From the NCBI GenBank assembly GCA_036768485.1, contig JAVLUZ010000509.1:496001-560000 (forward strand): a DNA stretch of 64,000 nucleotides. The letters are read 5' to 3'. Of this stretch, positions 4,831 to 47,951 are shown one piece after another. The notes below the pieces were generated by a model. That model saw only the letters and a list, made by a program, of their open reading frames with translations. It was not told the DNA's origin and did not search any database. This stretch comes from Mermis nigrescens (taxonomy: Eukaryota; Nematoda; Enoplea; Mermithida; Mermithidae). Both the position numbers and the translations under genes were made by a program. Within the stretch, counting starts at the first letter, position 1; every line of letters begins with the position of its first letter.

Positions 4831-5753
4831 TTCAATAGACTTGCATAGACTTTGTAAATGAAGTCAAGGAATTTTCAAGGATTCATATGTGAAACATCAA
4901 TTAAGTGAGTTTGTTGCCTCAAAAGTAATCCTAGGTGATTTAAAAATTATGTTCAAGTGTCCTTAGATCATTGAAGAGAGATGTAATTTTGTCTTAAATG
5001 GGTTGCATTAAAGTTAAATCCTTCTTAGCCGTGTTTATATTATGTTTCACAAAATCTTGCACATGGAGAGCAATTGTTTAATTGATGAAAATTGCCTGCA
5101 AAAGTGGTTTGAAATGGACCAGCAATCACACTTACTGTGCACAGAAGTTGACAAAGATATGCAGCTTTATTGTAATCATGTACATTAATAGGCATTAAAT
5201 CGGAAATACACCATTTGGAATGGAAAAGACTGAGTTAATGAATACAGTGCAAAATTTGTGTCCCCCTCACAGCAACAACGGCACACACCTGGGAGGGTGC
5301 AGTTTCAATCAATGGATAATTAGAAAATTTGATGCCCGTGTTCAAGTACGTGCGAGCCGATTCGGCCCTGGCCCCGGCTGAGCAGGCCAAAATCCCGACG
5401 GCCGGGCTAGTACAATGGCCGGGGCCGGGAGTTTTTGCTTTCTTGAATTGAATTATAAAAGCAGGCAGACACTCTTTTACTACTCATAAAAAGCTGCAAA
5501 GAATAGTAGTCAATTTTATAATCTAAAGAAAGCACCTGCACATAGACACAAACGTGCACCAACATAAAATCTGTTTCTATGCATGAACATTGTTTCATCT
5601 ACATATATAGTTCAATCAACCAACCAAACTCATATGTTGTGTTAAATCATCATGCATGTATTATAGTGTATGCGATTTTTTTTTACTTGTGAGCCATGAC
5701 CAGGCGAGAAGGCAGAGAAGAGAACAATAACCAGAACAATAGGAAAGGCTTGG

Positions 5754-6361
5754 GCAAAAAGATAAGCAGCATGAAAAAAATTGGACTAAGCTTCACCTCA
5801 AATTTGAAAGTAAATTCCCTATAATCTCAATAAAACTTTTTAATTTTTATATTTTTGGAATCAGCACTAAAATTTGAGCAAAAGGGCATATATAATCATC
5901 AAAGGTTATATTCAATATTGACAAACTTTTTTTTTAAAAGTGGCTATCAAAATAAAGTATTTTTTATTGGATTAATACAACAGGCAAGGCAATATATGTG
6001 TTGCTATGTATAGAACACTGCTAGTGGGTGTGAATGACTATCCCTCCTAGTGTTCCTTACATAGGAAATTTTTCAATAAGGCTTTTAGATACATACCTTC
6101 ACATTACCTTTGCAATCTAGGCCATAAGATATCAAACTGAATTTCAGCATACTAATAATGTATTCTTTTACGCTAAATCGGGTTAATAATGTACAACTAA
6201 GTTGAATATAACCTTTGATGATTATATATATTCTTGCTCGGAATTTAGTGCTGATTCCAAAATAAAAAAAAATTAAAAAGTTTTATTGAGATTTCAGGAA
6301 GTTTTATTTTCAAATTTGAAGAAGCAAGTCCAATTTTTTTCTATGCTGTTTATCTTTTTTG
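5754..6361. repeat. Long inverted repeat (foldback) inside the hAT element
   Basis: The arms 5754-5916 and 6201-6361 are reverse complements at about 85% identity. Each outer end reads CAAAAA(A)GATAA, and the arms share TTGGACT, CAAATTTGAA, CTCAATAAAACTTTTTAAT and GGAATCAGCACTAAA. The spacer is about 285 bp with no open frame. It lies in the 5' leader ahead of the transposase ATG and is probably a separate non-autonomous element that landed there. Confidence 0.8.
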
Positions 6362-7279
6362 GTGAACATTTATTTATTGTTTAACCGATTTATAAAAGAT
6401 ATCTCACAGCCTTAATAACGTATTTTTTTATTTTCAGCTAGTACTTTTATTAGTCTTATTAATTATTATGTCTACTAAGGCAGAATCAGTCGTTTGGGAA
6501 TTTTTTACGGTTGTAACTCAGGATGAAAGTAAAGCTAAGTGCAATCTTTGCAGCAATGTATATGCCCGTGGAAAAAACCCCAAAACGTATTCCACAAAAA
6601 GTTTATTGGACCACTTACGACAAAAGCATCTATTCATTCTGCAAGTGGCCCAAGAGAAAAAAGAGCAGATATTAACGGAGATGAAAGAAGCTGAAAAAGC
6701 CCATGCCATACTAAAAGAAGATGCGCCACCCACAAAACAAATAAAATTATCAGAATCATTTGAAATGAAACAACCATTTAGTGCAACGCATCCCACTCAA
6801 ATACGTATAAAACACAAATTATTCGAATGGATAATGGACGCTAATTTACCATACGCAACCGTTGAAAATTCGTGCTTTGAAAAATTAGTAAAAAGCTTAA
6901 ATCCTCGGTTCAATGTCCCTAGTGAATTTGTTCTCCGGTCAAACATGATGCCTAATATATATTCCGAAGTTAAGGCTGAAGTGACACGCTTGGTCCAGAG
7001 TCAAATGAAAATATGCTCAATAACTACAGACATTCAGAGCTCTCAAAATATGGATTCTTATATTGTCGTTACTTTACATTTTATTCAGCAAGAAGACTGG
7101 AAACGCAAATCTGTTGTTTTAGACTGTTTACCATTTTCGGAAAACCATACTGTTGAAAACATCGCCAAAGCCTTGAAAGGTGTTTTAGAAAACTTTTGAA
7201 CACTACCGGCGGTACATTTGGTAGTTAGAGACAATGTAATCAATATGGTAAACGCCATCAAGATATTAGGCTTTCCGAG

Positions 7280-19690: not shown

Positions 19691-20057
19691 GTATCTGCTG
19701 CAAAGGAGATTCTCAAACTATCTATGCAATTTAATGGACTATAGAGAGCACCTATGGGGACACCACAAAAAGTCACAGCAAATAATTTGACAGAAACACT
19801 ATTGAAGAGTCAACATGAAAATGTTGATACCCTATCATAAATGGCACTTCAACACACTAGACAAAATATTTACGGAAATACCAGAGATTTGATGAAAATT
19901 GTTACCACCATAAATATCCTAGAAATGGAAAGTTCTTCATATGAATGGAAAGTGAATAACAAATAAGCTCTGGGATGAGGCAACTAGCTCAACATACCTT
20001 TTATAAACAGATTATGGAGACTTTAATACTGTAATATCACATTCAACGAGACATGAG

Positions 20058-20492
20058 AGTAGTATAGCATGCGTTCCCTAGGTGCTACACACAGTATATA
20101 CAGCTATGTTTTGTGTTATAGGCCCCGCCCACTCCATCCCAGAGGAGCAGCCTCTCCTGTGTTATAGCATAGGCGGATACGCTCTGCTTGCGCCCTGGCT
20201 TTTTTCTCAGGGCGCAATGAGGAGGCATGGGGAAGGGGAAGCTGAGCAAGCCAATGAATTAACATACATATTGTAAGGTGCATACCTACACAATTAAAAA
20301 ATTGGCAAAACAGTGTGCGTAATATCGCGCATTGTCAAAGCATTTTTTTGCAGCTGGTAATATCGCCCGTGGAATTTATAATATCGCGCATTGGCAGCGA
20401 ATTTATAATAAGCGCATTGGCAAAGCAACGTAGACTGAAACACGATGAATATAATAAGCGCATTGGCAGCAAATTTATAATAAGCGCATTTT
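20058..20492 (+). repeat. Polinton left terminal inverted repeat
   Basis: Reverse complement of 29595-30010 with scattered indels. The inner third holds five GCGCATT(G) iterations at about 20327, 20385, 20412, 20458 and 20485, often as GCGCATTGGCA followed by ATTTATAATAA. These could be replication or protein-binding sites. Another GCGCATTGGCA lies inside the element at 21567. Confidence 0.92.
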
Positions 20493-20716
20493 GTTGACTG
20501 GCGAAGCAATAGCACTAAATTGATAATTCTCGCGCCAGGATGGATGGATTGTGCCCAATTTTTCGAACGAGGCATACCATTTTGAGTGCATGTGATGAAA
20601 TATTTATTTATAGTCTAGGTCCACGGTCTACTGCATCTTAATCATTCAAGGGGTAGACCGCCGCTCTAGACTAGAAGTTCAACCCCCAATTTCCAAGCCA
20701 TTTTGGACTTGCAAAA

Positions 20717-20728
20717 TCTATAAATACT
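20717..20728 (+). promoter_or_regulatory. Polinton promoter box TCTATAAATACT (gene a)
   Basis: Exact copy of the box seen before four other genes of this element. It begins 43 nt before the ATG at 20760. Between the left terminal repeat (20492) and here there is no gene. A minus-strand TATAAATA at about 20605-20612 has no gene behind it. Confidence 0.65.
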
Positions 20729-20759
20729 AATATTTCTTTCATTAATTTAAAACTTCAAA

Positions 20760-21084
20760 ATGGAGGAAATTATCAAACTGAAAAAAACGTCCTTTCACGG
20801 ATGAGGAAAAGAAACCTTATGGGCGGACAATAAGACCGCCTATTGAGTTATGTGGGAGAAATCTGGAGCGTCCCATATACCCTCTCATGATACATTTATG
20901 TCATTTTTGTCAGAAAAATTTGTCTGAAAAAGACATTTTTGAAACAAATTCAGGAAAATGTTATTTTAACGTTCAGATGTGCCCAAGATGTTTTGAGTAT
21001 AATCAGGCATCCCAGGAGGCTGGGAACATGGTGATTAAGAAATATATCGCTCAACAGGTTGAAGAAGCGAAAAATGGCTTGTAA
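20760..21084 (+). pseudogene. Polinton gene a: small zinc-ribbon-like protein
   Basis: Not a protein I can name. ATG 20760 is placed by the promoter box upstream. A one-base frameshift in the A run near 20785 puts the rest in the frame that is open to 21084. The C-terminal part has paired cysteines: C-H-F-C near 20902-20913 and C-P-R-C near 20980-20991, a typical zinc-ribbon spacing. The N-terminal part is basic and rich in Pro, Arg and Glu. A DNA- or RNA-binding role is a guess. Without the frameshift the product would be about 108 residues. Confidence 0.55.
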
Positions 21085-21085
21085 A

Positions 21086-21097
21086 GTTATAAATATG
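21086..21097 (+). promoter_or_regulatory. Polinton TATAAATA box (gene b)
   Basis: GTTATAAATATG, with the TATAAATA core shared by the element's other promoters. It begins 41 nt before ATG 21127. Confidence 0.5.
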
Positions 21098-21126
21098 AGC
21101 AATATCTGACAAAAATTATCTACAAA

Positions 21127-21453
21127 ATGAGTTCTCAAGGTGAATTGAGTTTTAATCATTTTGTGACCAAGTTGGCTGATAAAGCCTGCACGAGGTACAT
21201 TACTTCTCACAATGTACAAAGCATTGGCTCCTGCTTTTGGAGTTTGCTGTCTGAAGAATACAAAGAAAATTGCAAAAGCATCAATAATCAGAAAGCATTT
21301 TGGAATTTTGCGCTTTATGTGAAACGATGCCTTATAAATCGTGAAATTGAGCCTATTTTGGATTTATGGCAAGATTTTGATCAAAATGGCAAAAATACAT
21401 GGGAAAGCATGTATGAAAATTGCCTAAACAAGCGAGTTAGTCGTGTATTATAA
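21127..21453 (+). CDS. Polinton gene b: unknown 108-residue protein
   Basis: An intact frame with no motif I recognise. It is mixed alpha-helical in composition and carries several Cys and Trp residues (SIGSCFWSLLSEEYK near residues 32-46, KAFWNFALYVKRCL near 58-71). The TATAAATA box 41 nt upstream and the intact frame, in an element where most genes are broken, argue that it is real. It sits between gene a and the truncated end of polB. From 21454 to 21630 there is only a GCGCATTGGCA iteration and no gene. Confidence 0.5.
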   Translation: MSSQGELSFNHFVTKLADKACTRYITSHNVQSIGSCFWSLLSEEYKENCKSINNQKAFWNFALYVKRCLINREIEPILDLWQDFDQNGKNTWESMYENCLNKRVSRVL

Positions 21454-21630
21454 ACAATTTGATTGAATTGAAAAATGAAAAAAAAAACCCAAAAAAATTA
21501 GCACCTCTCAGAGGCATCATGTGTGTATGTAAAAAATGGTGGTTGCCCACCACTAATAACCTGCTAGCGCATTGGCAGCATTGGCAAAGCAATTTGCTTA
21601 CAGCATTGATGATGTCCGGCCAGCTAAGCC

Positions 21631-22403
21631 TCAGGGCTTCTCAGGCATTTTTGTTATTAGATCATAATGATTATTAGCAGCGTGCAAGTGAATTACTTTC
21701 TCAGCCTCAGGCCCTTGAAAGTACAAAATATTGCCATTATAAACTTTTATTTGGTAGTCTGGCACCAGACTCTTTTGGATTTTTTCTACAGCTTTAAGTC
21801 CATATTTCTCGTCATTAATGCTTAGATCAGCTTTGTGCATCAGCTCTAATGAAAGTTGCTTTTGCAGAGTGTGCCGTCCTTTGTCACCTTACCAAACAGA
21901 TTCCCACTTAGGGCAGTTGTCTAGCTTTGCTATACCTGTTACAACAGCTCTGGCTAATGATAAATTATGGTTTGATGTGATTCTAATATATGCCCCACCA
22001 TTTTTGCAAAAGTCACCTACTTCAAATTCATAATTGGTACCCATTTAGGGTTTTTTGTCCACCAGAACTACTTTGAAAGTCAAGTCTTCACTTAAACAAA
22101 AGTCTTTTGGGACTGAGCCACCTTTTCTATAACACTCAAAACCTTGTCAGCATTTATGCATTGACGTTGGGTGAATCGTACTAACACAGGCGTATAAAGG
22201 CTTGGCTGTCTAATTTCAATGCCTACCATACTGTCATAAGGACAGCCATGCAACATCAGGTTAATAGCTTTTTCAAAAATCTGTTCGAAAATCTCAAAGA
22301 GATTAGGGCATCTCGTAAAACGCAACAAAAATGCCTTAGCGGTTGTCCTAAACCTACAAACAGAAATGTGTGGGAGCTCATGTACTTCAAAGTACTGCTC
22401 CAT
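21631..22403 (-). pseudogene. polB: Polinton DNA polymerase B, N-terminal fragment only
   Basis: A protein-primed family B DNA polymerase would replicate the element. Only the N-terminal accessory region of Polinton polymerases is left. Recognised segments are YDSMVGIEIRQPSL near 22215, a CINADKVLSVIEKVAQS stretch near 22130, a SLARAVVTGIAKL segment near 21940 and KYGLKAVEKIQK-VYNGNILYFQGPEAE-NHYDLI at 21650-21800. ATG 22403 fits the promoter box at 22434-22445. Frameshifts and a stop break it near 22090 and 21900. The exonuclease and polymerase motifs that should follow are absent, because gene b occupies the adjoining DNA. A deletion of over 2 kb is inferred. Confidence 0.75.
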
Positions 22404-22433
22404 TTTCAAATTGCAACTACATACTTACTAATC

Positions 22434-22445
22434 TTTATTTATAGA
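22434..22445 (-). promoter_or_regulatory. Polinton promoter box TCTATAAATAAA (polB)
   Basis: Read on the minus strand, the box begins 42 nt before the polB ATG at 22403. It matches TCTATAAATACT at all but one position. It lies in the divergent interval between polB and integrase. Confidence 0.6.
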
Positions 22446-22492
22446 CAGAATGATGTTAATAAATAGATGGACTGTTATAAAATGTTTAAAAA

Positions 22493-23553
22493 ATGGAAAA
22501 AGTGTTAAAGCACATATATTACAACCCTAAAACGGGATATAGTAGCGTGGAACAGCTATATGAGAGGGTTAAAAAAGTAAAGCCAAAAATAGACCGGTCC
22601 TATGTGAAACAATGGTTGGAAAAGCAGCCCACCTACACGTTACACAAACCCGCCCTTAAGAGGTATTCTCGAAATAAAGTGTTAGTAAGTAGCATGGATG
22701 AGCAATGACAATGTGATATTGTAGATCTGCAGTCCTTAAGCAAGTTTAACGATAATTTTAAAAATCTCTTGAATTGCATAGACATATTTTCAAAGTACGC
22801 ATGGTCCATCCCTTTGAAATCAAACAGTTCAAAAGATGTTCTGACCGCTTTTCAAAGCATTTTGCATTCATCAAATCGAAAACCGTACAAGCTGCAAACA
22901 GACGCAGGGACCAAATTTACAAACAAAGAATTCCAAAAATTTCTTAAATCTGAATTTATTGATTTTTTCACAACTAAAAGCAAAATGAAGGCTAGCGTAG
23001 TTGAACGTTTTAATCGCACACTTAAAGAACGTATGTGGCGGTACTTCACCAAGAGCAATTCATATAAATTTATTGATGTATTACCCGACTTGATGAAAAA
23101 CTATAATCACTCCAAGCATCGTACAATTGGTACCTCACCAGCTAATGTTACAGTCAAAAATGAGACGGAAATTTCAAATAAAGCATTTAGGATTGATAAA
23201 CAGAATGTTGTTTTTAAATTTAATATTGGCGATGAAGTCCGACTGAGTAAAGTTAGGCGCGCTTTTGAAAAAGGATTTTGGCCCAACTGGACAGAGGAGT
23301 TTTTCATAATTAAGGAGAGGTTTGCTCGCACACTGCCTGTTTACGTTTTAGAAGACCAAATGGGCAAAAAAAAGTCAAGGGTATTTTCTACAAACCTGAA
23401 CTGCAAAAAATTGATATATCCTCGGATGACTTGTTTATTGTTGAAAAGATTTTGAAACTGCGTAAGAAAGGCAATAAAACTGATTATTTAGTGCACTGGC
23501 GAGGGTACCCAGAAAAGTTTGATTCCAGGGTCTCAAACCTGATAAAGTTATAA
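22493..23553 (+). pseudogene. Polinton integrase with C-terminal chromodomain
   Basis: A retroviral-type DDE integrase that would insert the element and make 6-bp duplications. The N-terminal region (22493-22705) ends at an in-frame TGA at 22706. The catalytic core follows: first Asp in QCDIVDLQ near 22710, second Asp in LQTDAGTKF near 22900, Glu in VVERFNRTLK near 22998. A C-terminal SH3-like part (IGDEVRLSK near 23230) is followed by a frameshift near 23385. A chromodomain (EKILKLRKKGNKTDYLVHWRG) then runs at 23440-23510. The ATG follows a plain TATAAAA rather than the element's standard box. The single stop and single frameshift suggest recent decay. Confidence 0.88.
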
Positions 23554-23589
23554 ACGTCTAAAAAGGGGCACCTAAAGGCCAGATTTTTA

Positions 23590-23880
23590 CACTTTGCAAT
23601 ATTTTTTGTAAAGTTTGGGATATTTTTTGTAAAGTTTGGAATATTTTTTGTAAAGTTTGGAATATTTTTTGTAAAGTTTGGAAATTTTTTTGTAAAATTT
23701 GGAATATTTTTTGTAAAGTTTGGAATTAATTTTACATGCTTAAGCATAAAACTTTTGCAAAGTTTGGAAGATTTTCTGTAAAATTTGGAATATTTTTGTA
23801 AAGTTTGGAATATTTTTTGTAAAGTTTGGAATATTTTTTGTAAAGTTTGGAAATTTTTTTGTAAAATTTGGAATATTACG
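23590..23880. repeat. 21-bp minisatellite between convergent genes
   Basis: About a dozen units of GTTTGGAATATTTTTTGTAAA with small variants, broken by one unrelated stretch near 23725-23755. It fills the space between the 3' end of integrase and the 3' end of the TBP-like gene. It is open on the minus strand but encodes only a low-complexity repeat. It abuts the stop codon of the TBP-like gene. Confidence 0.88.
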
Positions 23881-24394
23881 TATCTAAGTTGCATTTCTCA
23901 AGCATTGTTGAAACTATTTTATATGCTATATGCAACTCATGCTTGTGTTTTGCACCTGTGAGAATCATTTTTCCACTTGTAAAGAGTAAAAAGGTCACTT
24001 TTCTAAATTTGTATACTAATCCGGGAAATAATTCTACTTCATACATGCATTTCCTTTTCACCAGCTCATAAAACTTACAAAGATCAATGCAAAATCCCAA
24101 GTTAGCCGAGCCAACAAACAGCACTGGCTATATTTTCAACATGAAATTCTCCATATTCAGTATATCAATGGATGTCTTTATCGTATTTTCGCCTTCTTGC
24201 ATAGTTTTAGCTCCAACACATACAATTTTACCCGACTTGAAAATCTGCAATGTTGCCTGAGGTAATCAAAATATGATGCCTGGAAATTTTGAGCGATTGT
24301 ATTGTGCAGTATTTGGCAATTTAGGGTAGATATAATCTAGATTCAGCGTATTTGGTAGTGCTGTAGTCAGCACAATGTTCTGTATAGTTACCAT
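23876..24394 (-). pseudogene. TATA-binding-protein-like gene in the Polinton
   Basis: TBP binds the TATA box with a saddle of two repeated lobes. This frame spans 172 sense positions, about the size of the TBP core, with almost no N-terminal extension. Lobe 1 (residues 1-83) begins TIQNIV and has KFPG (Phe37), IFKSGK (Phe52) and VGAKT. Lobe 2 (about 86-172) has FVGSANL, ELFPGLVY (Phe123), LLFTSGK (Phe138) and LTGAK. The four Phe positions correspond to the intercalating Phe residues of cellular TBP. Two in-frame stops interrupt it, TGA at codon 43 (24266-24268) and TAG at codon 89 (24128-24130). Both stand where TBP usually has Arg or Gln, consistent with C-to-T changes. It lies between integrase and ATPase, well inside the terminal repeats. 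A captured host or viral TBP is likely. Confidence 0.85.
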
Positions 24395-24439
24395 TTTCTA
24401 TAAATACTTCATTATAAACTTATATTTATACCTATAACC
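24395..24439. promoter_or_regulatory. 45-bp bidirectional promoter, TBP-like / ATPase
   Basis: Between the two divergent start codons lie a plus-strand TCTATAAATACT (24397-24408), 43 nt before the ATPase ATG, and a minus-strand GGTATAAATATA (24421-24432), 38 nt before the TBP-like ATG. Both genes would have leaders of only a few nucleotides if transcription starts about 30 nt from each box. Confidence 0.65.
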
Positions 24440-25087
24440 ATGATGTTCCAACATCCTTTCACCTGCCTTCTTTCAGGACCAACCAAGTCTGGCAAAACAA
24501 TATTTGTCACGCGATTAATCAAAAAAAGAGCACACTTGATTGATATTAAAAGCAAAAAGATATGGTGGTGCTTTGCAGAAAATCAGCCTCTTTATAAAAA
24601 ATTAAATGTTTTATTCATAGAAGGGCTTCCTGATTTTAATTACTTAAAACAATTTAGTCATATGCCACAACTTTTGATTCTCGATGATCTTATGCAACAG
24701 AGCAAGGGTAATTCCCAGATTGTTCAACTTTTTACGTGAAGTTGTCATCATTGGAACATTAGCATTATACACATTGTTCAAAACGTTTTCTTTGATGGTC
24801 TAAGAACTTCACGCATCAACTCTGATTATATAGTTTTATTCAAACACCCTGCTGATCAGCTACAGGCACAAATGCTTTCCAGACAGGTCTATCCTGCCAA
24901 CGCTAAATATTTTCTAGAAGCTTATTCAGAAGCTACTTCTCAGCCACATGGTTACCTTTTAATTGATCTAACTCAAAATGCTAGAGATGAGCTCAGGCTT
25001 AAAACAAATATTTTTAGCCCTCATCCAACTGTTTATGTGCAGAAATCTATAAATACTAGTAGAGACATTGCAACAAAAAATGGGTAA
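24440..25087 (+). pseudogene. Polinton packaging ATPase (FtsK/HerA-type, A32-like)
   Basis: This would pump DNA into capsids. Walker A is GPTKSGKT at residues 14-21 and Walker B is LLILDDLM (about 24676-24700). The frame breaks at about 24737 and continues through CHHWN, IIHIVQNVF and a QVYPANAKYFLEAY segment to a stop at 25085-25087. The C-terminus overlaps the next gene's ATG (25080) by 8 nt. A diverged second copy sits at 50007-50584. The start is set by the promoter box 43 nt upstream. Confidence 0.88.
25046..25057 (+). promoter_or_regulatory. Polinton promoter box TCTATAAATACT (core-like protein)
   Basis: Exact box, inside the end of the ATPase gene, beginning 34 nt before ATG 25080. 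Its presence inside coding sequence argues for selection on the motif rather than chance intergenic AT content. Confidence 0.65.
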
Positions 25088-25430
25088 AGAACTATTAACA
25101 TGCAATATTGGTTTTTTACATCTCCTAAGTCAAGCTAAAAAACCTCAAAGAACCGCTATTATAAATACTGCCAGCAAAGATCAAATCCTTTGTCTCTGTG
25201 ACTGTGCAAACAACTTTCTGAATGGTAATATTCCTTTTGCTGAGAAGGATATAAATAAACTTCGAAGATATCAGAATCAAATAAGATACCTGGCAAAGAA
25301 TAGGCAGGCAACTACAAAACAAAAGAAAGATATTATAATACAAGAAGGTGGTTTCCTTCCTCTTTTACTTACTCCTATACTTACAATATCTGGTAGTTTG
25401 TTAGCTGATGCAATAGTTGGTAGAAAATGA
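25080..25430 (+). CDS. Polinton conserved small protein, 116 residues
   Basis: An intact frame. The family is common in animal Polintons and adintovirus-like elements: an N-terminal helix, then a C-x-C-D-C-A-N-N-F-L-N-G-N motif (residues 40-52), a basic middle (LRRYQNQIRYLAKNR) and a hydrophobic, Gly-rich end (GGFLPLLLTPIL). The role is not established; a virion core or capsid-associated function is my inference. ATG 25080 is preferred to upstream in-frame codons because of the box 34 nt before it. Its stop TGA overlaps the next ATG in ATGA. The second fragment at 50640 encodes a relative. Confidence 0.75.
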   Translation: MGKELLTCNIGFLHLLSQAKKPQRTAIINTASKDQILCLCDCANNFLNGNIPFAEKDINKLRRYQNQIRYLAKNRQATTKQKKDIIIQEGGFLPLLLTPILTISGSLLADAIVGRK

Positions 25431-25992
25431 AACATACTGAAAAGATGATTCTTATACCCGCTGAAATCAGTGAGCGGACTAAACCTATTGATGTTGTGCT
25501 AGATTCCTTGGATAATAAAATGCAAAAAGTTTTGCATAGCAAAAGTGTAGCTCCTGAAATAAAAGTCATGAAATACAATCAGGCGCTTAACAGATTTAAA
25601 CGACTATATGAACAAAAGCAGCAGCCATATAGAGCTAGTATACTTAAAGATGCAAAAAATGCTTTGAGTGTTGTAGATGTGCTCGTTGGTATGCCAAAAA
25701 ATCAGATTCCAAAGGCCAAACTCCTTCTTCACTACATTCTACAAATCCATTTATTGAAATTGAGCCTAATGGCGAGCTTGTGATAGATGGCAATAAAATT
25801 GAAGGCTCAAACATTACAGATTTAGTTATTGATCTTGCACGTGAGTGTAAGAAAATAAGTAGGCACCCTGGCACAAAAGAATTGCTGAAAGTCTTTAATC
25901 ACACAAATGTTCCACTGGAAAGTATAGCAAATAGACAAGGTAAGGAGATTTTTGCTGCAAGTAGTGAATTCGACTGGGATGAAAGTCTATAA
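25427..25992 (+). pseudogene. Polinton conserved hypothetical gene, one frameshift
   Basis: ATG 25427 overlaps the previous stop (ATGA), so it was probably translated from the same transcript. The N-terminal part (LIPAEISERTKP, then a helical KYNQALNRFKRLYEQ) resembles a widespread Polinton ORF of unknown function. A frameshift near 25720-25780 moves to a second frame with acidic and helical sequence (ITDLVIDLARECKK) ending at 25992. No enzymatic motif. Its end overlaps the next gene's promoter box. A virion-associated role is possible but not shown. Confidence 0.65.
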
Positions 25993-25997
25993 ATACT
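25986..25997 (+). promoter_or_regulatory. Polinton promoter box TCTATAAATACT (Gly-rich virion protein)
   Basis: Exact box overlapping the upstream stop codon. It begins 47 nt before ATG 26033. Confidence 0.65.
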
Positions 25998-26032
25998 TAT
26001 CATATTTAATTCCTTCAAACAAAATTACAAAA

Positions 26033-26410
26033 ATGCACGTTCAATTCAATCCTAACAATTACAACATTTGGTTGGACTATTACACAGGGCAGGCTGCCCA
26101 AACAGGCTATGGGTTGGAGGGGTATAAAGGCATCCCATACCAGCGGGGCATGAGTCTTGGCAGCTTTTTCCGTTCGCTTTTCAGAATGGCAGTCCCAGTT
26201 TTGCAGTCAATTGGTAAGCAAGTTGGAAAACATGCTCTAGCTGCAGGTTCAAACATAGCATCTGACTTGGCATGAGGAAAACCGCTTTTTGAATCTACTA
26301 AAGAACACTCAAAGCAAGAAGCTGCAAAACTTTTTGATGAAGCCTCTCATGCCATTCAGCAGCAGCAAGGAGAGGGTCTTGGTAGTCGCCCAAAGTCTAT
26401 AAATACTAGC
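26033..26410 (+). pseudogene. Polinton Gly-rich small virion-like protein
   Basis: The N-terminal half (YKGIPYQRGMSLGSFFRSLF, about residues 36-55) followed by an amphipathic IGKQVGKHALAAGSNIASDL segment is typical of a short Polinton/adintovirus ORF sometimes compared with adenovirus minor core or pVI-like proteins. That comparison is inference. A TGA at 26273-26275 stops the frame. Beyond it the same frame stays open, still reads like the family (Lys/Glu helix, then Gly-rich) and runs in frame into the capsid gene with no other stop. ATG 26033 fits the box at 25986. Confidence 0.65.
26396..26407 (+). promoter_or_regulatory. Polinton promoter box TCTATAAATACT (major capsid)
   Basis: Exact box lying within the upstream open frame. 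It begins 42 nt before ATG 26438 but only 15 nt before ATG 26411, so the 26438 start is favoured. Confidence 0.65.
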
Positions 26411-27236
26411 ATGATTGATGCTTTTCCAAACAAAAAAATGGCTCTCGTAAACGGAAAATCTATTCTCAGTACTAAAACTGAATTGGACCTTTTCACAGTC
26501 CCTCCTACTCAAGTAGTAATAAAACGCGGCTTTTGGCATGAAATGCAACCTACAAATCCTATTACCAATGAGGGGCCCTATGAATTCAGAGTACCTCCTG
26601 ATCCACATTATATTCAGCTTAATAAAAACTACATTTATATGCTACTGAGAATCAAAAAACCAGTTGTTGCTGCTGGAGCAGCAGTGCCTGACTATGCGCC
26701 TATCAATCTTATTGGTAAGACTTTCTTCAAGCAAGTAAAATGCTTTTTAGGAGGCAAATTAGTTTTTGACAGCTTAAATATGCATATAGATCATATTTTG
26801 AAACTGAATTGAATTATGGGTATGATGCCAAACATTCACACTTTCAATCTGCGCTGTACTTTCATGATGGTGGAGGCAATGTTGACACAAAAGAGAATGA
26901 AGCTTTCAAGAAACGCTCAAAAATGTTCAAAGATGAAAATGTTGTGGAAGTCGCGGCCCCACTGCACATTGACATGTTCTTGCAAGACAGATATTTAGTT
27001 AATTTTACCAATTTCTGCCTAGAATTACACAGAAATAATAATGCATTTGTTTTGCAGTGTTTTGAGGATGTCAGCCTTGACTTGAAAGTCTCCCAAATAA
27101 AATTATTTATTCGAAAAGTTGAGGTTTTGGACATTGTGAATTTAGCTCTTTAGCAAACAATGCTTTCATATACAGCAAAATATCCCATAAGGCGTGTAGC
27201 TTTGACTACACGTCGTTTTCACACAATCTGAGAATT

Positions 27237-28200
27237 TGAGTAGATTTATAAGTATAACTTTTGATCCGCTGGAATTTGTTATGAAAATAAATACAATAAA
27301 TGATCACAATTCATTCAGCTTGCTCAAAAATTAGTCCATGTTTCATGTTATAACATGCCTACAGTTTGACAGTCGGTCAATGCTGATTTACCTGCTCACC
27401 ATTGAATAACTCATTTGAGTGAAGTGAGGTTTTTTGAGATGAACTCAAGAACCACTAAATGGATTTTCACGAAATAAAGTGTTTTAGATAGACAATTTTA
27501 AAATAAAACTATTTTGCTAAAAAAAGTGTAGCTAGCTTATGTCTACAGTATGCTAGGTCCGAAAAAGTGCTCAAACTTTGTTTGGTCACAGCAGTATACA
27601 GGTTAAGTTTCATATTTTGGAAAATAGCAAAATAGTTAGATATTTTTGTGCTCTAAATTTCACCCCTTTTTGTTTTTCGTATTTCTGAATAGTTCGTCCA
27701 GCAATTTCAATTCAATTTTTTTCCAATATGGCTGCCCTCATAAGGTATGCATTTTACTTGCACTATTTTTCATATTTTCAAACGTTTAAGCACATTTTAG
27801 AATGCCCAAAGAAAGCTCAATCAAATGATATCCTATTTGTCTGATTTACTAAAGAATTCCAGTTTTTCAATATGGCCACCAGAAAGGCTGTCATACTGTA
27901 GCTTTTGATGTTTTTAGCTATTATTCTGTGAGTTTCTGACATATTTCTAAATTTTTTTTCAGTAAATAGCTAGAAAATTTAATGTTCTTTTTAACGAGCT
28001 ATGTCTCATGTTCTGAATCTTTCTAGTTCATTCCAGGGAAGTTCAAAAACCTCAGAATTATTCATTGTATAGTGAAAATGACGTGACTAATTTGCACATT
28101 TCAAATCCTGCAAGAGAAACGCCCAATTAAACATTGTTCACTGGTCAGCTGCCTAGAGCGTATAGTGTTTGCCTGTGTTGAAGGCAGTGCTTATTGAGGC
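27237..28200. other. Unidentified 0.96-kb insertion in the capsid gene
   Basis: Capsid-coding sequence stops near ...TCTGAGAATT and resumes near AACTTGGCAAAATCG. The DNA between has stops in all frames and no motif, terminal repeat or target duplication I can define. It may be a non-coding transposon fragment, or it may replace a short piece of the capsid gene. Confidence 0.55.
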
Positions 28201-28461
28201 AACTTGGCAAAATCGTCAATCAACTTCAAAGCGTTCAGCATAAATGATGTAAAAGTAATGTGTGGAGGTATAACATATCCTGCTTACCCACTCAGCATTT
28301 CATTTAAACATGACAGGTACTTGCAAGCTTATACTCAGATGTTTGATGCATTAGATATTGGGCACAAAGGTAATTTTATTAGCAGAGAAGATTTTAAAAC
28401 AAGTCACTGCTTCTTTGTGTTCGATTTGACCCCTGATGCAGATGATGGAGGACACTGGGAC

Positions 28462-28725
28462 CATACATGGGCAGCAAGAAAATTCTGGGGGATGCAAGAT
28501 TTTTTTGAAGGTCGAAAAATGGCCTTAAAAATGGTGGTATGGCGATAAAAACACAATTTTTCGACGTTTCTCATCAAGCACTATCCATTGGCATCAAAAA
28601 ATTGCAAAAAAAAACAAGAAAAATTTTCAAAAATTGAATTCTGGGGGGGTATTTTGATTTGGGGGGGGGGTATTTTGGTTTCTGGGGGGGTGCATACCCC
28701 CCCAAACCCCCCACGCCCAGGTGTG
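28462..28725 (+). mobile_element. MITE copy M4, in the Polinton capsid gene
   Basis: Starts CATACATGGGCAGC and ends CGCCCAGGTGTG. A perfect 8-bp duplication ACTGGGAC lies at 28454-28461 and 28726-28733. The two halves of the capsid frame resume exactly after removing the element and one duplication. Confidence 0.96.
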
Positions 28726-28882
28726 ACTGGGACCTAGTTCGTGAAGGAACAATGAGCATCGCTGTTAGGTTTTCTGAAAATTTGCCCAATTCTGGCATTG
28801 AAATCATTATATATGCTGAATTTGATAACTTAATAATGATTGATAAAAATCGAAACACGTTTCATGACTATGATGCATAAAC

Positions 28883-29300
28883 ATGAACACTATTGAAATA
28901 TTCAAAATTCTCAGACATAATAATATATTTGCAGGCGTTTTCCCCATAGATCTTCTGCCACCTATAAAAAAATTACCCTGCGGCTCTGGTTGTAAATTTG
29001 GACTCCAGTAAGGAACCAGGATTGCACTGGGTCACAATTTATTTCCAAAATAAGAAGCATTGCGACTATTTTGACAGCTATGGGTTAGAACCTAATATTC
29101 AATTACATCAATACATTTCTGATAATGTGCTCTCATTTACATACAATAATATGCAAGTACAAGGGCTTTTTTCAATTAGCTGTGGTCATATGTGTATCTA
29201 CTTTTTGGTCTGCATGAGCCAAGGCATAAGTTTCACAAACATTGTTCTGTCTATGCTCAGTAAAAAAATTAATAAATACTTTAATGAACTAGAATTATAA
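28883..29300 (+). pseudogene. Polinton adenain-like cysteine protease
   Basis: Ulp1/adenain-fold protease that would mature capsid proteins. Visible catalytic set: His in GLHWV (near 29013), Asp in YFDSYG (near 29070), Gln in MQVQG (near 29156), Cys in SCGHMC (near 29180-29197). The N-terminal FAGVFPIDLLP motif is at about 28930. One frameshift near 28985 separates the N-terminal 35 codons from the rest. ATG 28883 follows the capsid stop by 2 nt; no TATAAATA box precedes it. Confidence 0.85.
29269..29280 (+). promoter_or_regulatory. Weak Polinton promoter box (TTAATAAATACT)
   Basis: Matches the box at 10 of 12 positions and begins 34 nt before ATG 29303, inside the end of the protease gene. 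The core is AATAAATA rather than TATAAATA, so it is listed as a weak member. Confidence 0.4.
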
Positions 29301-29302
29301 AC

Positions 29303-29592
29303 ATGGATACAAAACAGTTTTATGTAACGCTTCCGAGCAATTCCCAAGAAAAAAATACTGCAGCCACATTTGTTACCAATCTGCCTAGACAAATCGCATT
29401 AAGTGGTGACTGATATGTTGGGTTATCCAAAATAATTTATGCAAATACATGGCACAATGTTGCCGAGGAGCAGAATATGATACAATTTTATGATTTAAAA
29501 AATAATGTTTGAATAAAAATGCTTATTCCTCGAGCAAGATATCTAAATATACATGATCCTGTTAAAACAATGAGCAAATGCGTCAATCATAA
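29303..29592 (+). pseudogene. Polinton minor-capsid-like gene, truncated at the terminal repeat
   Basis: The N-terminus (QFYVTLPSNSQEKN, then a FVTNLPRQIALSGD segment and GLSKIIYANTW) matches a conserved Polinton ORF that I take to be the single jelly-roll minor capsid (penton-like) protein; that identity is from family knowledge. A stop at about 29411 sits where Trp is expected (TGG to TGA). A second stop follows near 29510. Sequence ends against the right terminal repeat at about 29595, so most of the gene is missing. Confidence 0.65.
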
Positions 29593-29594
29593 AA

Positions 29595-30010
29595 AATGCG
29601 CTTATTATAAATTCGCTATCAATGCCCAATATAACTTGTCTTTGCCAATGCGCTTACTATAAATTTGCTGCCAATGCGCGATATTATAAATTCCACGCGC
29701 GATATTACCAGCTGCAAAAAAATGCTTCAACAATGTGCAATATTATGCACACTTTTTTGCCAATTTTTTAATTGTGTAGGTATGCACCTTACAATATAAA
29801 TGTTAATTCCTTGACCTGCTCAGCTTCCCCTTCCCACATGCCTCATCATTGCGCCCTGAGAGAAAAGCCAGGGCCCAAGCAGGGCGCTTATCCACCTATG
29901 CTATAACACAGGAGAGGCTGCTTCTCTGCAATTGAGTGGGCGGGGCCTATAACACAAAACATAGCTGTATATACTTTGTGTTGCACCCTAGGGACGCATG
30001 CTATACTACT
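29595..30010 (-). repeat. Polinton right terminal inverted repeat
   Basis: Inverted copy of 20058-20492. The outermost bases are CATGCTATACTACT, followed by CATGTG. Divergence from the left repeat (substitutions and small indels, roughly 10-15% by eye) suggests an old insertion. Confidence 0.92.
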
Positions 30011-30016
30011 CATGTG

Positions 30017-39387: not shown

Positions 39388-40452
39388 ATGGACGATTTAT
39401 GTAGAAATCTGAGGCGCTTACCTATAGGCATCAACATCATAGCTTTTCTTACGTTTGCGTTGTTTTACGGAAATATTTTCCAAACTACTAGTGCTGAACC
39501 GCATTATCAATGCGGGATGTCCCAGGGCGGACAAGCCTTTTTCGTTCCGCCACACATAATATGCGCTCCTCCAAAATTGGGAAGTCCTGAAGTAAGCGTC
39601 ACACTGAATATTTGGGAACATAAAAATAAGCTAGATCAAACTAAGACAGTAAGATGCATTATAAGGAATCGTACAATTTGCACAAATACTGGTTTTTTTG
39701 GTTCAAAAGGAATTGTTTTAGATCAGACTAAACAGTTATTAGTCACACCTGCTGAATGTTTACAAATTTGGATAGATAAAACTTATCATAAATTGTCATT
39801 AATCAAAATAAAACCTGGAGTATGGGTGACAAATAAAACTCTAAAATTAAAATATGTATGGTGCTGTCATGATTTGTGTGAGAGAGTAAGTAATGTTTTA
39901 CTCGAGGTAGGCATAATTGCAACTGTTAATAACGAAACAACTATCAGTGATTTAGGGGATACTGGAGGTTGTCCCTCTAGCCGTGGACTTTGCACTAACC
40001 CTTCCGGAACTATAATTTGGAATGCAAGTGATTTTAGCAATTTTTGTCCAATTCAGAAAATAGGAACTTATGCAGGTCGCATTGTTGGTTCTCATGTCAT
40101 TGTTGAATCCATTCAGGGAGCATTTAAAATAAAGCGTTCTGCTTTGCTGTGTAACTTATCTTCAACATATTTCACCGAGCAAGGACTGATACTTCAATTC
40201 CAAAATGAAACAAAATTATTAAAAGATTTATCAGATTTTAAAAATATTTCCAATTCATTTTCTGACTTTGATCCGCAGAACGCTAAATTTCAATATTTAT
40301 ATATGATAAAATTAATGAACAAAATTTTCAAAAATCTTTCGAGCAATTTAGTCAGAGTTGTGCCATTCAGCAAGACGGCAATTAAAAATGATTTGGCAAT
40401 TTTTAAAATTAGACCCAATGCTCGGGGCTCGTGCTCTTTTGCTTCGGAATGA
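39388..40452 (+). pseudogene. env: RE-B envelope-like glycoprotein, N-terminal part
   Basis: ATG 39388 precedes a signal-anchor-like segment (NIIAFLTFALFYGNIF, residues about 16-31 from this start) and a Cys-rich ectodomain. Conserved with RE-A are IICAPP, NRTICTNTGFFGSKGI and WCCHDLCERV. About eight N-glycosylation-type N-x-S/T sites are visible. The frame ends at 40452, but the homologous sequence continues in the overlapping frame at 40358, so a frameshift splits the gene. The fusion class (rhabdo/chuvirus-like or other) cannot be settled by eye. Its position upstream of protease is the unusual feature. Confidence 0.75.
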
Positions 40453-41830
40453 TGTTGTTGCATCTTTTGCAGGACAGGTACTGATGGTTTGGGAATGCGA
40501 TCCTGTAATACCAGACGAAATTTACTGGGACTATAAAATTAATAATACGTGCTATGAATATTTGCCTGCTAAAATAGGAAATTTAACACTTTTTATCGTA
40601 CCTGGAAGTCGCGATATAATATCTATTTCACCAATAGTTGATTGTAACCATCACGTAATAGGTATATATCATGATCACAAGGTAGGGTGGCGGACATCTT
40701 TGGGATCCATCCATGTTAACTCAATACCGTATGAAGTTTCATGGAAAATAAATCAAAAAGTACTAACTTTCAATTCTCCGGCCATTTTTCACGACCGGAA
40801 AGCGGGAATCGTCTCAACATTTGGCTTAATACGAAGTTATTCATCTCGAGTATTTAGATTAGAGCAGCAGTTTCAACGACTTTTAACGTATACATCTAGT
40901 TTAACATTAGATCCGGACATAGTCTACAAAACTTTAGCAGGCACTAACTCAATGTTATCAAATGTTATCAATGGACCCTCCCTGGCTATAGAAAGCGTAA
41001 TCACTCACGGAGGCACATCGATTATTTCTGGACTAATGCAATTAATATCAGGTCCACTACAATTATTACTAAATTTACTTATTATTGCAGTTTTTGTCAT
41101 TCTCATGTTTCTCTTTTTCTGGTACGTTTTGAAATATTTACGTCATCGATGTAAGAAAACTAGAAAACGGAAACGTCATAGTAAATCACCAAGAGAGAGA
41201 AATCAAAAATTTTCAGTCAATTTGCCACAACAAAATGAAATCCCTAAGCAGAATGCAACATCTAATGGAATTATTTCTCCCAATTTTTCAGATTTATTAG
41301 TTCAAACTTTTTCCTCATTATTAACAAAAGAAAATAATGAACATGATACTAATAAAAATGATTCAACAAGTCAAAACGTAAATTCAGAAGTAAATGACCA
41401 TTGTCCTCATCTCGATATCTGGATTAATGATTTTGAAAAACGGGTAACGGGATTACTAGATTGCGGTTCTGATATTACGATAATCAGCGTTGATCTGTGT
41501 AAGCAATATAATCTAAGAATTGAGCGACCGACCGTTAAACAATTTAAGACAGTAACTGAGGATATTGGGACAATTATAGGATCTGTATGGATAAAAATTT
41601 TGCTTATATCGCCTATTAAATTTTTGTCTGCACATGAAGAAATGATGCGCGTTCATGTTATCCAAAATTGTCCTGCTAACTTTGTTTTAGGAACAGATTA
41701 TCAAAGGAGATTTTCGAAAGTCGGTATACAATGGAAAAATCAGAAAATTGATTTTGGTACTTTTAGCGTGCCTATGAAAACTTATTTATATCTGCCTGAG
41801 ACAGACCAGGGGCGCAGTAGTTGTGCATAA
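40358..41830 (+). CDS. RE-B glycoprotein C-terminal part fused in frame to retropepsin
   Basis: One open frame of 490 codons. Residues 1-230 continue the ectodomain (VLMVWECDP, NNTCYEYLP). A transmembrane helix follows at about 234-258 (LLIIAVFVILMFLFFWYVL). A very basic stretch (RHRCKKTRKRKRH, about 262-275) and a Ser/Asn-rich tail come next. Residues 340-475 are a retropepsin-like domain with D-C-G-S (LLDCGSDITIIS, about 365-376) in place of D-(T/S)-G-A, and NFVLGTD near 441. Envelope membrane subunit and protease therefore share a polypeptide. The first codons overlap the N-terminal glycoprotein frame, so the true start is undefined. Confidence 0.8.
   Translation: MCHSARRQLKMIWQFLKLDPMLGARALLLRNDVVASFAGQVLMVWECDPVIPDEIYWDYKINNTCYEYLPAKIGNLTLFIVPGSRDIISISPIVDCNHHVIGIYHDHKVGWRTSLGSIHVNSIPYEVSWKINQKVLTFNSPAIFHDRKAGIVSTFGLIRSYSSRVFRLEQQFQRLLTYTSSLTLDPDIVYKTLAGTNSMLSNVINGPSLAIESVITHGGTSIISGLMQLISGPLQLLLNLLIIAVFVILMFLFFWYVLKYLRHRCKKTRKRKRHSKSPRERNQKFSVNLPQQNEIPKQNATSNGIISPNFSDLLVQTFSSLLTKENNEHDTNKNDSTSQNVNSEVNDHCPHLDIWINDFEKRVTGLLDCGSDITIISVDLCKQYNLRIERPTVKQFKTVTEDIGTIIGSVWIKILLISPIKFLSAHEEMMRVHVIQNCPANFVLGTDYQRRFSKVGIQWKNQKIDFGTFSVPMKTYLYLPETDQGRSSCA

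Positions 41831-45815: not shown

Positions 45816-47951
<2,136 letters not shown>

Follow-up and report, generated by a model that had tools for sequence, protein, structure and literature searches.

The stretch of Mermis nigrescens DNA analysed here, hereafter the window (64,000 nucleotides; contig JAVLUZ010000509.1, positions 496,001 to 560,000 of the forward strand), contains a Polinton, and within this element lies a gene for a protein like the TATA-binding protein (TBP). The parts of the element, in window positions, are the following.

20052..20057, left target-site duplication, CATGAG
20058..30010, Polinton of 9,953 bp, ends AGTAGT...ACTACT, host site a Ty3/gypsy-type retroelement
20058..20464, plus strand, left terminal inverted repeat
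20782..21081, plus strand, zinc-ribbon-like piece with two CxxC, frame in the window copy ending after 14 codons
21634..22403, minus strand, two pieces like the N-terminus of pPolB, relatives in L224 and L229 at 75-79%, no family match
22493..23550, plus strand, integrase (rve and C-terminal part), PF00665 5.1e-10, frame broken by one stop and a frame change
23876..24394, minus strand, TBP-like gene of 172 codons, two in-frame stops in the window copy
24443..25084, plus strand, packaging ATPase, one in-frame stop, L229 relative 78-90% identical
26438..27150, plus strand, major-capsid-like pieces, L229 relatives 89% and 86% identical, no family match
28968..29297, plus strand, adenain-like cysteine protease piece, PF00770 2.1e-6, 28 bits against a cut-off of 21.3
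29595..30010, minus strand, right terminal inverted repeat
30011..30016, right target-site duplication, CATGTG

The terminal inverted repeats measure about 0.4 kb each, and the 6-bp target duplication that flanks the element has one mismatch between its two copies. The AGTAGT/ACTACT ends are the commonest end motif among vertebrate Mavericks in the accessible part of PMC8097293. On the left, the Polinton is flanked by a retroelement RNase H frame (PF17919, 2.9e-31), and on the right by an Integrase_H2C2 piece (PF17921, 1.8e-15) and an rve piece (4.3e-8). When the Polinton and one 6-bp copy are removed in silico, the retroelement frame is continuous over the junction into the Integrase_H2C2 domain, which indicates that the Polinton arrived as one unit. 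Membership in this class is supported by the rve integrase, the protease and an A32-type packaging ATPase, the last recognised through its relative in L229, a related element of the same genome (Pox_A32, PF04665, 7.2e-5; 22.8 bits, exactly the cut-off); the first piece of the window ATPase itself has an RNA_helicase match only, below threshold. The pieces at 26438..27150 are presumably major-capsid-like; a search for the double-jelly-roll major capsid protein returned a DJR-like domain at 0.15 only, and the 439-aa L229 ORF has no Pfam match. The third capsid piece of the window overlaps a dispersed repeat, and its matches in L215, L220, L222, L223, L225 and L227 were left uncounted. We likewise take the two pieces at 21634..22403 to resemble the N-terminus of pPolB; the remainder of polymerase B is absent from the window Polinton, which is short at 9.95 kb. 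The zinc-ribbon-like protein (20782-21081) matches no Pfam family above cut-off. A 21-bp minisatellite of 13.5 copies (23593-23877) lies between integrase and TBP and extends into the TBP stop codon.

The sequence-only reading had described a minus-strand frame at 23876..24394 broken by two stops, and position, strand and stops are all as it claimed; the frame also lies, as proposed there, between the integrase and the packaging ATPase and inside the inverted repeats. Profile, fold and residues all uphold its identity as a TBP. With the two stops replaced by X, the translation matches PF00352 at 3.5e-39 (133 bits against a cut-off of 22.9) in two stretches, as expected of a two-lobed protein, and the profile search suggested as a check has ended in a significant match and not in the lack of one. 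The three pieces searched singly reach 1.7e-7, 2.7e-8 and 4.2e-19, and the saddle fold was recovered. The four Phe residues likened to the intercalating residues of TBP (F37, F52, F123, F138) are indeed invariant in an alignment with 36 other TBPs. In lobe 2, the window protein has Leu at the position that aligns with an Asn which we take to contact the DNA groove. Both Glu of the YExELFPG stirrup are present, and these are the contact for TFIIB (PMC7221094, in its available portion). Two other identities were rejected: a single-lobe protein of RNase HIII type (DUF3378 at 0.0042), in view of two full lobes at 3.5e-39, and a processed host pseudogene, in view of only 35% identity to the host TBP.

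Many Polintons of the same genome have this TBP gene, and the window copy is a decayed one. In the 524-Mb assembly (860 contigs), the best 150 of 2,553 first-look candidates were scored with PF00352 and all were above cut-off; 142 of these 150 have no internal stop, a share biased to intact copies because the best scores come first, and the window copy scores below this list. Two of the 150 belong to the host gene, and another 11 represent the second lobe of a locus already listed, so that 137 places remain; 20 of these, hand-picked along the score list, were fetched at 10 kb each. A TBP frame 129-234 residues long is present at each of the 20, with lobe damage at three (L212, L221, L225). The four Phe are all kept at 13 loci, the fourth is Tyr at four L211-type loci and the three others have damaged lobes; both TFIIB-contact Glu are retained at 17. 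With the window proteins as queries, core Polinton genes were found at seven of the fetched loci (L218, L224, L225, L226, L228, L229, L230), and with relatives as queries L215 (integrase), L217 (polymerase-like) and L227 (only an unnamed ORF, elsewhere 3' of the protease) were added; at the other ten, the zinc-ribbon-like or the 108-aa gene of the window Polinton lies within the same 10 kb. Relatives of the zinc-ribbon-like gene accompany TBP in this way at 15 of the 20 loci, and its product is a possible partner of TBP. L229 and L230, whose TBP proteins are identical, have the gene order of the window; their TBP is unbroken, 171 residues long and placed, on the opposite strand, between integrase and ATPase. 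The same order and an unbroken TBP are seen in L224, but with a deletion after the ATPase start. All three elements had been located by way of their TBP.

The integrase served as a second anchor. Among the best 150 of 3,503 integrase candidates, which include the window, at least 23 of the 149 non-window rows are followed, 0.8-1.7 kb downstream and on the other strand, by a TBP from the list above, where 0.06 are expected. Six integrase loci with no listed TBP were fetched (3.3 kb around the integrase), and three of them (L231, L232, L236) turned out to carry, between integrase and ATPase, a TBP of 172 codons free of stops. The other three (L233, L234, L235) show no TBP in these 3.3 kb or in 3.55 kb on their other side, and may carry one elsewhere; different genes follow their integrase, and zinc-ribbon-like genes are present. 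TBP is therefore a frequent, patchy and not universal gene among the Polintons of this genome. The proposed search for the gene in other Polintons of the species has found it unbroken at the same place in L224, L229, L230, L231, L232 and L236. The accompanying suggestion, that copies lacking the gene would make it a later host-derived insertion, received a partial answer: the same position in these six elements and 35% identity to the host TBP speak against such an origin, and the parts examined of L233-L235 do lack the gene.

In L211 and L214, TBP and the zinc-ribbon-like gene occupy a spacer of 1.2-1.4 kb. Long inverted arms flank it, their longest blocks measuring 1,552 and 1,069 nt, with more blocks outward, and the two loci resemble palindromic deletion derivatives of a Polinton; arms of this kind were not seen at L213, L216, L220 or L223. 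L218 encodes an F-box protein (5677-6543 of that locus; Pfam 1.8e-11), and this protein or a related L216 ORF has tblastn matches at 12 of the 20 TBP loci, L216 and L218 counted.

By their N-terminus, the 20 TBP frames sort into five types, and representatives of different types share 34-47% identity. Identity of the window protein amounts to 74% with the L229 protein, 45-47% with the L218/L219 type and 35% with the host TBP. The host TBP is canonical, has no more than 88.6% identity to the 120 TBPs in the comparison, and is encoded on contig C73, where its two lobes match about 2.7 kb apart in an exon-like manner. In a TBP tree, which had been called for, the window groups with L224 and L229 (99/95) and then with L218/L219 (96/90), and the host TBP groups with animals (87/73). 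A clade with animals was not rejected in AU tests (p 0.162 with the window TBP on its own, 0.106 with all Polinton TBPs), nor was a single Polinton TBP clade (p 0.475) or a union with the metagenomic proteins P0002 and P0006 (p 0.58, 0.348); the branch joining window and archaea has support of 75/0. An archaeal row, L146, was left out of the tree for a stop inside its cut. P0002 and P0006 are divergent TBPs, 58% identical to each other, the former having GKIVCVGAKTM in common with the window TBP, and they are possibly other viral TBPs. The best 25 protein-database relatives of the window integrase (P0121-P0145) are 58-72% identical and all metagenomic, on contigs of at most 13 kb. In IMG/VR, no relative was found with the TBP, ATPase or close-integrase queries, and a broad integrase query gave two weak matches; a promoter-word scan of the same resource returned at least 120 loci without TBP or element gene, which were taken as chance.

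Purifying selection acts on the Polinton TBPs across elements. We computed dN/dS for ten TBP pairs and obtained 0.16 for window-L229, 0.19 for window-L224, 0.20 for L224-L229, 0.15 for L218-L219, 0.14 for L218-L220 and 0.09 for L226-L228; the pair L229-L218 gave 0.17 with synonymous sites near saturation, and three near-identical pairs, in which synonymous changes number at most 4, yielded values of 0.46 and 0.55 or none. For the integrase, L224-L229 gave 0.22 and window-L229 was saturated.

A TATA-like word, TATAAATA, stands before most genes of the window Polinton, at the following places.

20605..20612, minus strand, 37 nt before an ATG opening 93 codons toward the left end
20719..20726, plus strand, 41 nt before the zinc-ribbon-like gene
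21088..21095, plus strand, 39 nt before the 108-aa ORF
22436..22443, minus strand, 40 nt before the pPolB-N-terminus-like ORF
24399..24406, plus strand, 41-44 nt before the ATPase start codon
24423..24430, minus strand, 36 nt before the TBP start codon
25048..25055, plus strand, 32 nt before ORF 25080
25988..25995, plus strand, 45 nt before the minor-capsid-like ORF
26398..26405, plus strand, 40 nt before the major-capsid-like ORF

The word occurs 11 times inside the Polinton and five times in the other 54 kb of the window (TA array masked); shuffled versions average 1.06, and not one of 500 reaches 11. An ATG lies 30-46 nt downstream at 9 of the 11 boxes, against 3.3 at random; at 7 boxes this ATG starts a frame of 60 codons or more (0.36 at random, 0/20,000; background 3-5%), the other two of the nine belonging to the broken TBP and zinc-ribbon-like genes. 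None of the five boxes outside the Polinton is so placed. Boxes before an ATG of at least 60 codons number 7 of 11 in L229 and 6 of 9 in L224. In the window Polinton, 8 of the 11 recognised genes bear a box, and the integrase, ORF 25430 and the protease have none. The longer word TCTATAAATACT is found five times inside the Polinton and never in the rest of the window, before the ATPase, capsid-type and zinc-ribbon-like genes, the pPolB-like and TBP genes having other extensions.

Upstream of the zinc-ribbon-like, 108-aa and polymerase-like genes, where the DNA of window and relatives otherwise differs, the box forms a conserved block. Upstream of the ATPase, the relatives show TATATATA in place of TATAAATA, and the box upstream of TBP does not align. 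Conservation upstream of ORF 25080 and of the capsid genes is no test, since some or all of that DNA is itself coding; the integrase row, being off its start codon, was left out of the upstream alignments. Other lineages differ in their boxes. L228 has no TATAAATA and three TATAAAAG, two of them before long ORFs, and L226 has one TATAAATA and three TATAAAAG, these two near-copies being counted as a single lineage; L225 has six boxes, none before a long ORF. Among the five TBP types, TATAAATA precedes the gene for TBP only in that of the window; the L216 type has TATAAAAG there and the remaining types have neither. In L233-L235, TATAAATA stands 32-46 nt before frames of 109, 352, 251, 143 and 116 codons in the integrase region. 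Since no TBP was detected in the parts examined of these elements, the boxes are independent of a nearby TBP gene and the host TBP is probably able to use them; the boxes are near-canonical words, which the host protein could serve.

The interpretation we favour, in which our confidence is about evenly balanced, is that the window TBP would have bound the TATAAATA boxes before most of the element's genes and recruited host TFIIB and RNA polymerase II. DNA binding, the use of host TFIIB and the service of these boxes by this TBP are steps that we infer: binding to TATA DNA and acceptance of host TFIIB are predicted because the fold, the Phe wedges and the two TFIIB-contact Glu are present. Several observations weigh against this reading, namely the boxes in L233-L235, the near-canonical form of the boxes, the lack of well-placed boxes in L225, the restriction of TATAAATA upstream of TBP to the window's type and the Leu in lobe 2. 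The Polinton protein would then be an added supply of TBP, of the element's own type, for its TATA-box genes. Because related elements without a detected TBP carry the same boxes, the host TBP probably serves them too, and the Polinton TBP may raise or prolong element transcription, for example while host TBP is tied up in TFIID. In an extension of this model that we consider speculative and unlikely as a whole, each Polinton lineage would have a TBP subfamily tuned to its own TATA variant (TATAAATA(CT) for the window, TATAAAAGA for L226/L228) and working with host TFIIB and polymerase, and palindromic derivatives, reduced to little more than the genes for TBP and the zinc-ribbon-like protein, would feed the system or exploit it.

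An alternative that is somewhat unlikely yet deserves weight is that the boxes are served by the host TBP and that the Polinton TBP is directed at the host: it would compete for host promoters or general factors and thereby reduce host or antiviral transcription. The boxes are near-canonical and present also in L233-L235, where TBP was not found, the retained TFIIB-contact Glu would permit competition for TFIIB, and accessory genes such as those for F-box proteins surround TBP in some lineages. However, in the window's lineage the TBP gene has the promoter type of the element and shares a divergent promoter of 45 bp with the packaging ATPase, and the L226/L228 lineage has different boxes, observations that argue against an anti-host role. 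We think it improbable that the protein is a late-phase factor that takes the place of TBP on some promoters of the element, acting with another protein encoded there (possibly the zinc-ribbon-like one), as in herpesvirus late transcription. The proximity of the zinc-ribbon-like gene to TBP at 15 of 20 loci is consistent with such a pairing, as is the exact word TCTATAAATACT before the ATPase and capsid-type genes with other extensions at the pPolB-like and TBP genes; but TCTATAAATACT also precedes the zinc-ribbon-like gene, zinc-ribbon-like genes occur in L233-L235 without a detected TBP, and their product has no Pfam family. We give almost no credence to the insertion of a host TBP copy into one Polinton only, unrelated to element biology: the stops in the window copy are its sole support, and the 35% identity to the host TBP, the same place in sister elements and the purifying selection across elements all contradict it.

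Giant and other large DNA viruses have genomes much larger than Polintons, and the viral TBPs alike by fold (BFVD matches) come mostly from them, several rows being nameless. Like the Polinton protein, their TBPs are two-lobed, belong to eukaryotic dsDNA viruses and mostly keep the Phe (accessible part of PMC7221094; BFVD). According to the same part of that source, the TFIIB-contact Glu is variable in large DNA viruses and almost all of them encode a TFIIB-like protein, whereas Polinton TBPs keep both Glu at 17 of 20 loci; the diverged Glu by which an orthogonal viral TBP-TFIIB system is recognised there is thus not seen in the window or at these 17 loci. Mirusviruses also carry TBP, in 59% of genomes, but have a herpesvirus-related virion module, and the contiguous genome described measures 431.5 kb (PMC10132985, partial text). 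KSHV ORF24 shares the viral TBP-like fold and the four Phe and targets viral promoters; in contrast, it has 752 residues, lacks the TFIIB-contact acidic residues and acts on TATTWAA late promoters (PMC12529657, partial text), the Polinton protein being a bare TBP core of 172 residues with TATAAATA boxes. The host TBP has the same fold and domain as the window TBP, but only 35% identity to it. Vertebrate Mavericks resemble the window element in terminal repeats of about 0.4 kb, (AGT)2//(ACT)2 ends, integrase, ATPase, protease and accessory regions beside the core modules; in the available text of PMC8097293, their gene list comprises pPolB, ATPase, PZ, PM, integrase, two capsid proteins, PW and protease, and TBP is not named.

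A viral TBP is thus of a known kind, and a selected, multi-copy TBP gene of Polintons is undescribed within the literature searched. The nearest report is of sporadic TBPs in mirus-like elements of an alga (PMC10675990), and TBPs of giant algal or amoebal viruses are described in the accessible parts of PMC11464507 and PMC12085832. No report of a TBP in a Polinton or adintovirus was found in that literature, which excludes most subscription papers, and a Polinton TBP does not appear in the accessible parts of PMC11071308, PMC10120064, PMC12220804, PMC4642659, PMC7805220, PMC11464507 and PMC12085832.

An element of about 10 kb with a TBP, present in many unbroken, selected copies beside the host TBP, allows a direct test of whether mobile DNA adds to, or takes the place of, the most central promoter factor of its host. 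Polintons are small virus-like elements that probably stand near the origin of many eukaryotic DNA viruses. The five divergent TBP types, the candidate binding sites and the sister elements with and without TBP offer a natural comparison, and TATAAATACT and TATAAAAGA are candidate sites for comparing the TBPs of two lineages. Elsewhere in the window, a frame at 40352-41830, upstream of a retroelement integrase frame, matches the fusion glycoprotein of Monjiviricetes (chuvirus type) at 1.1e-9 and aspartyl proteases weakly, and a perfect (TA)n array of 359 bp occupies 46125-46483.
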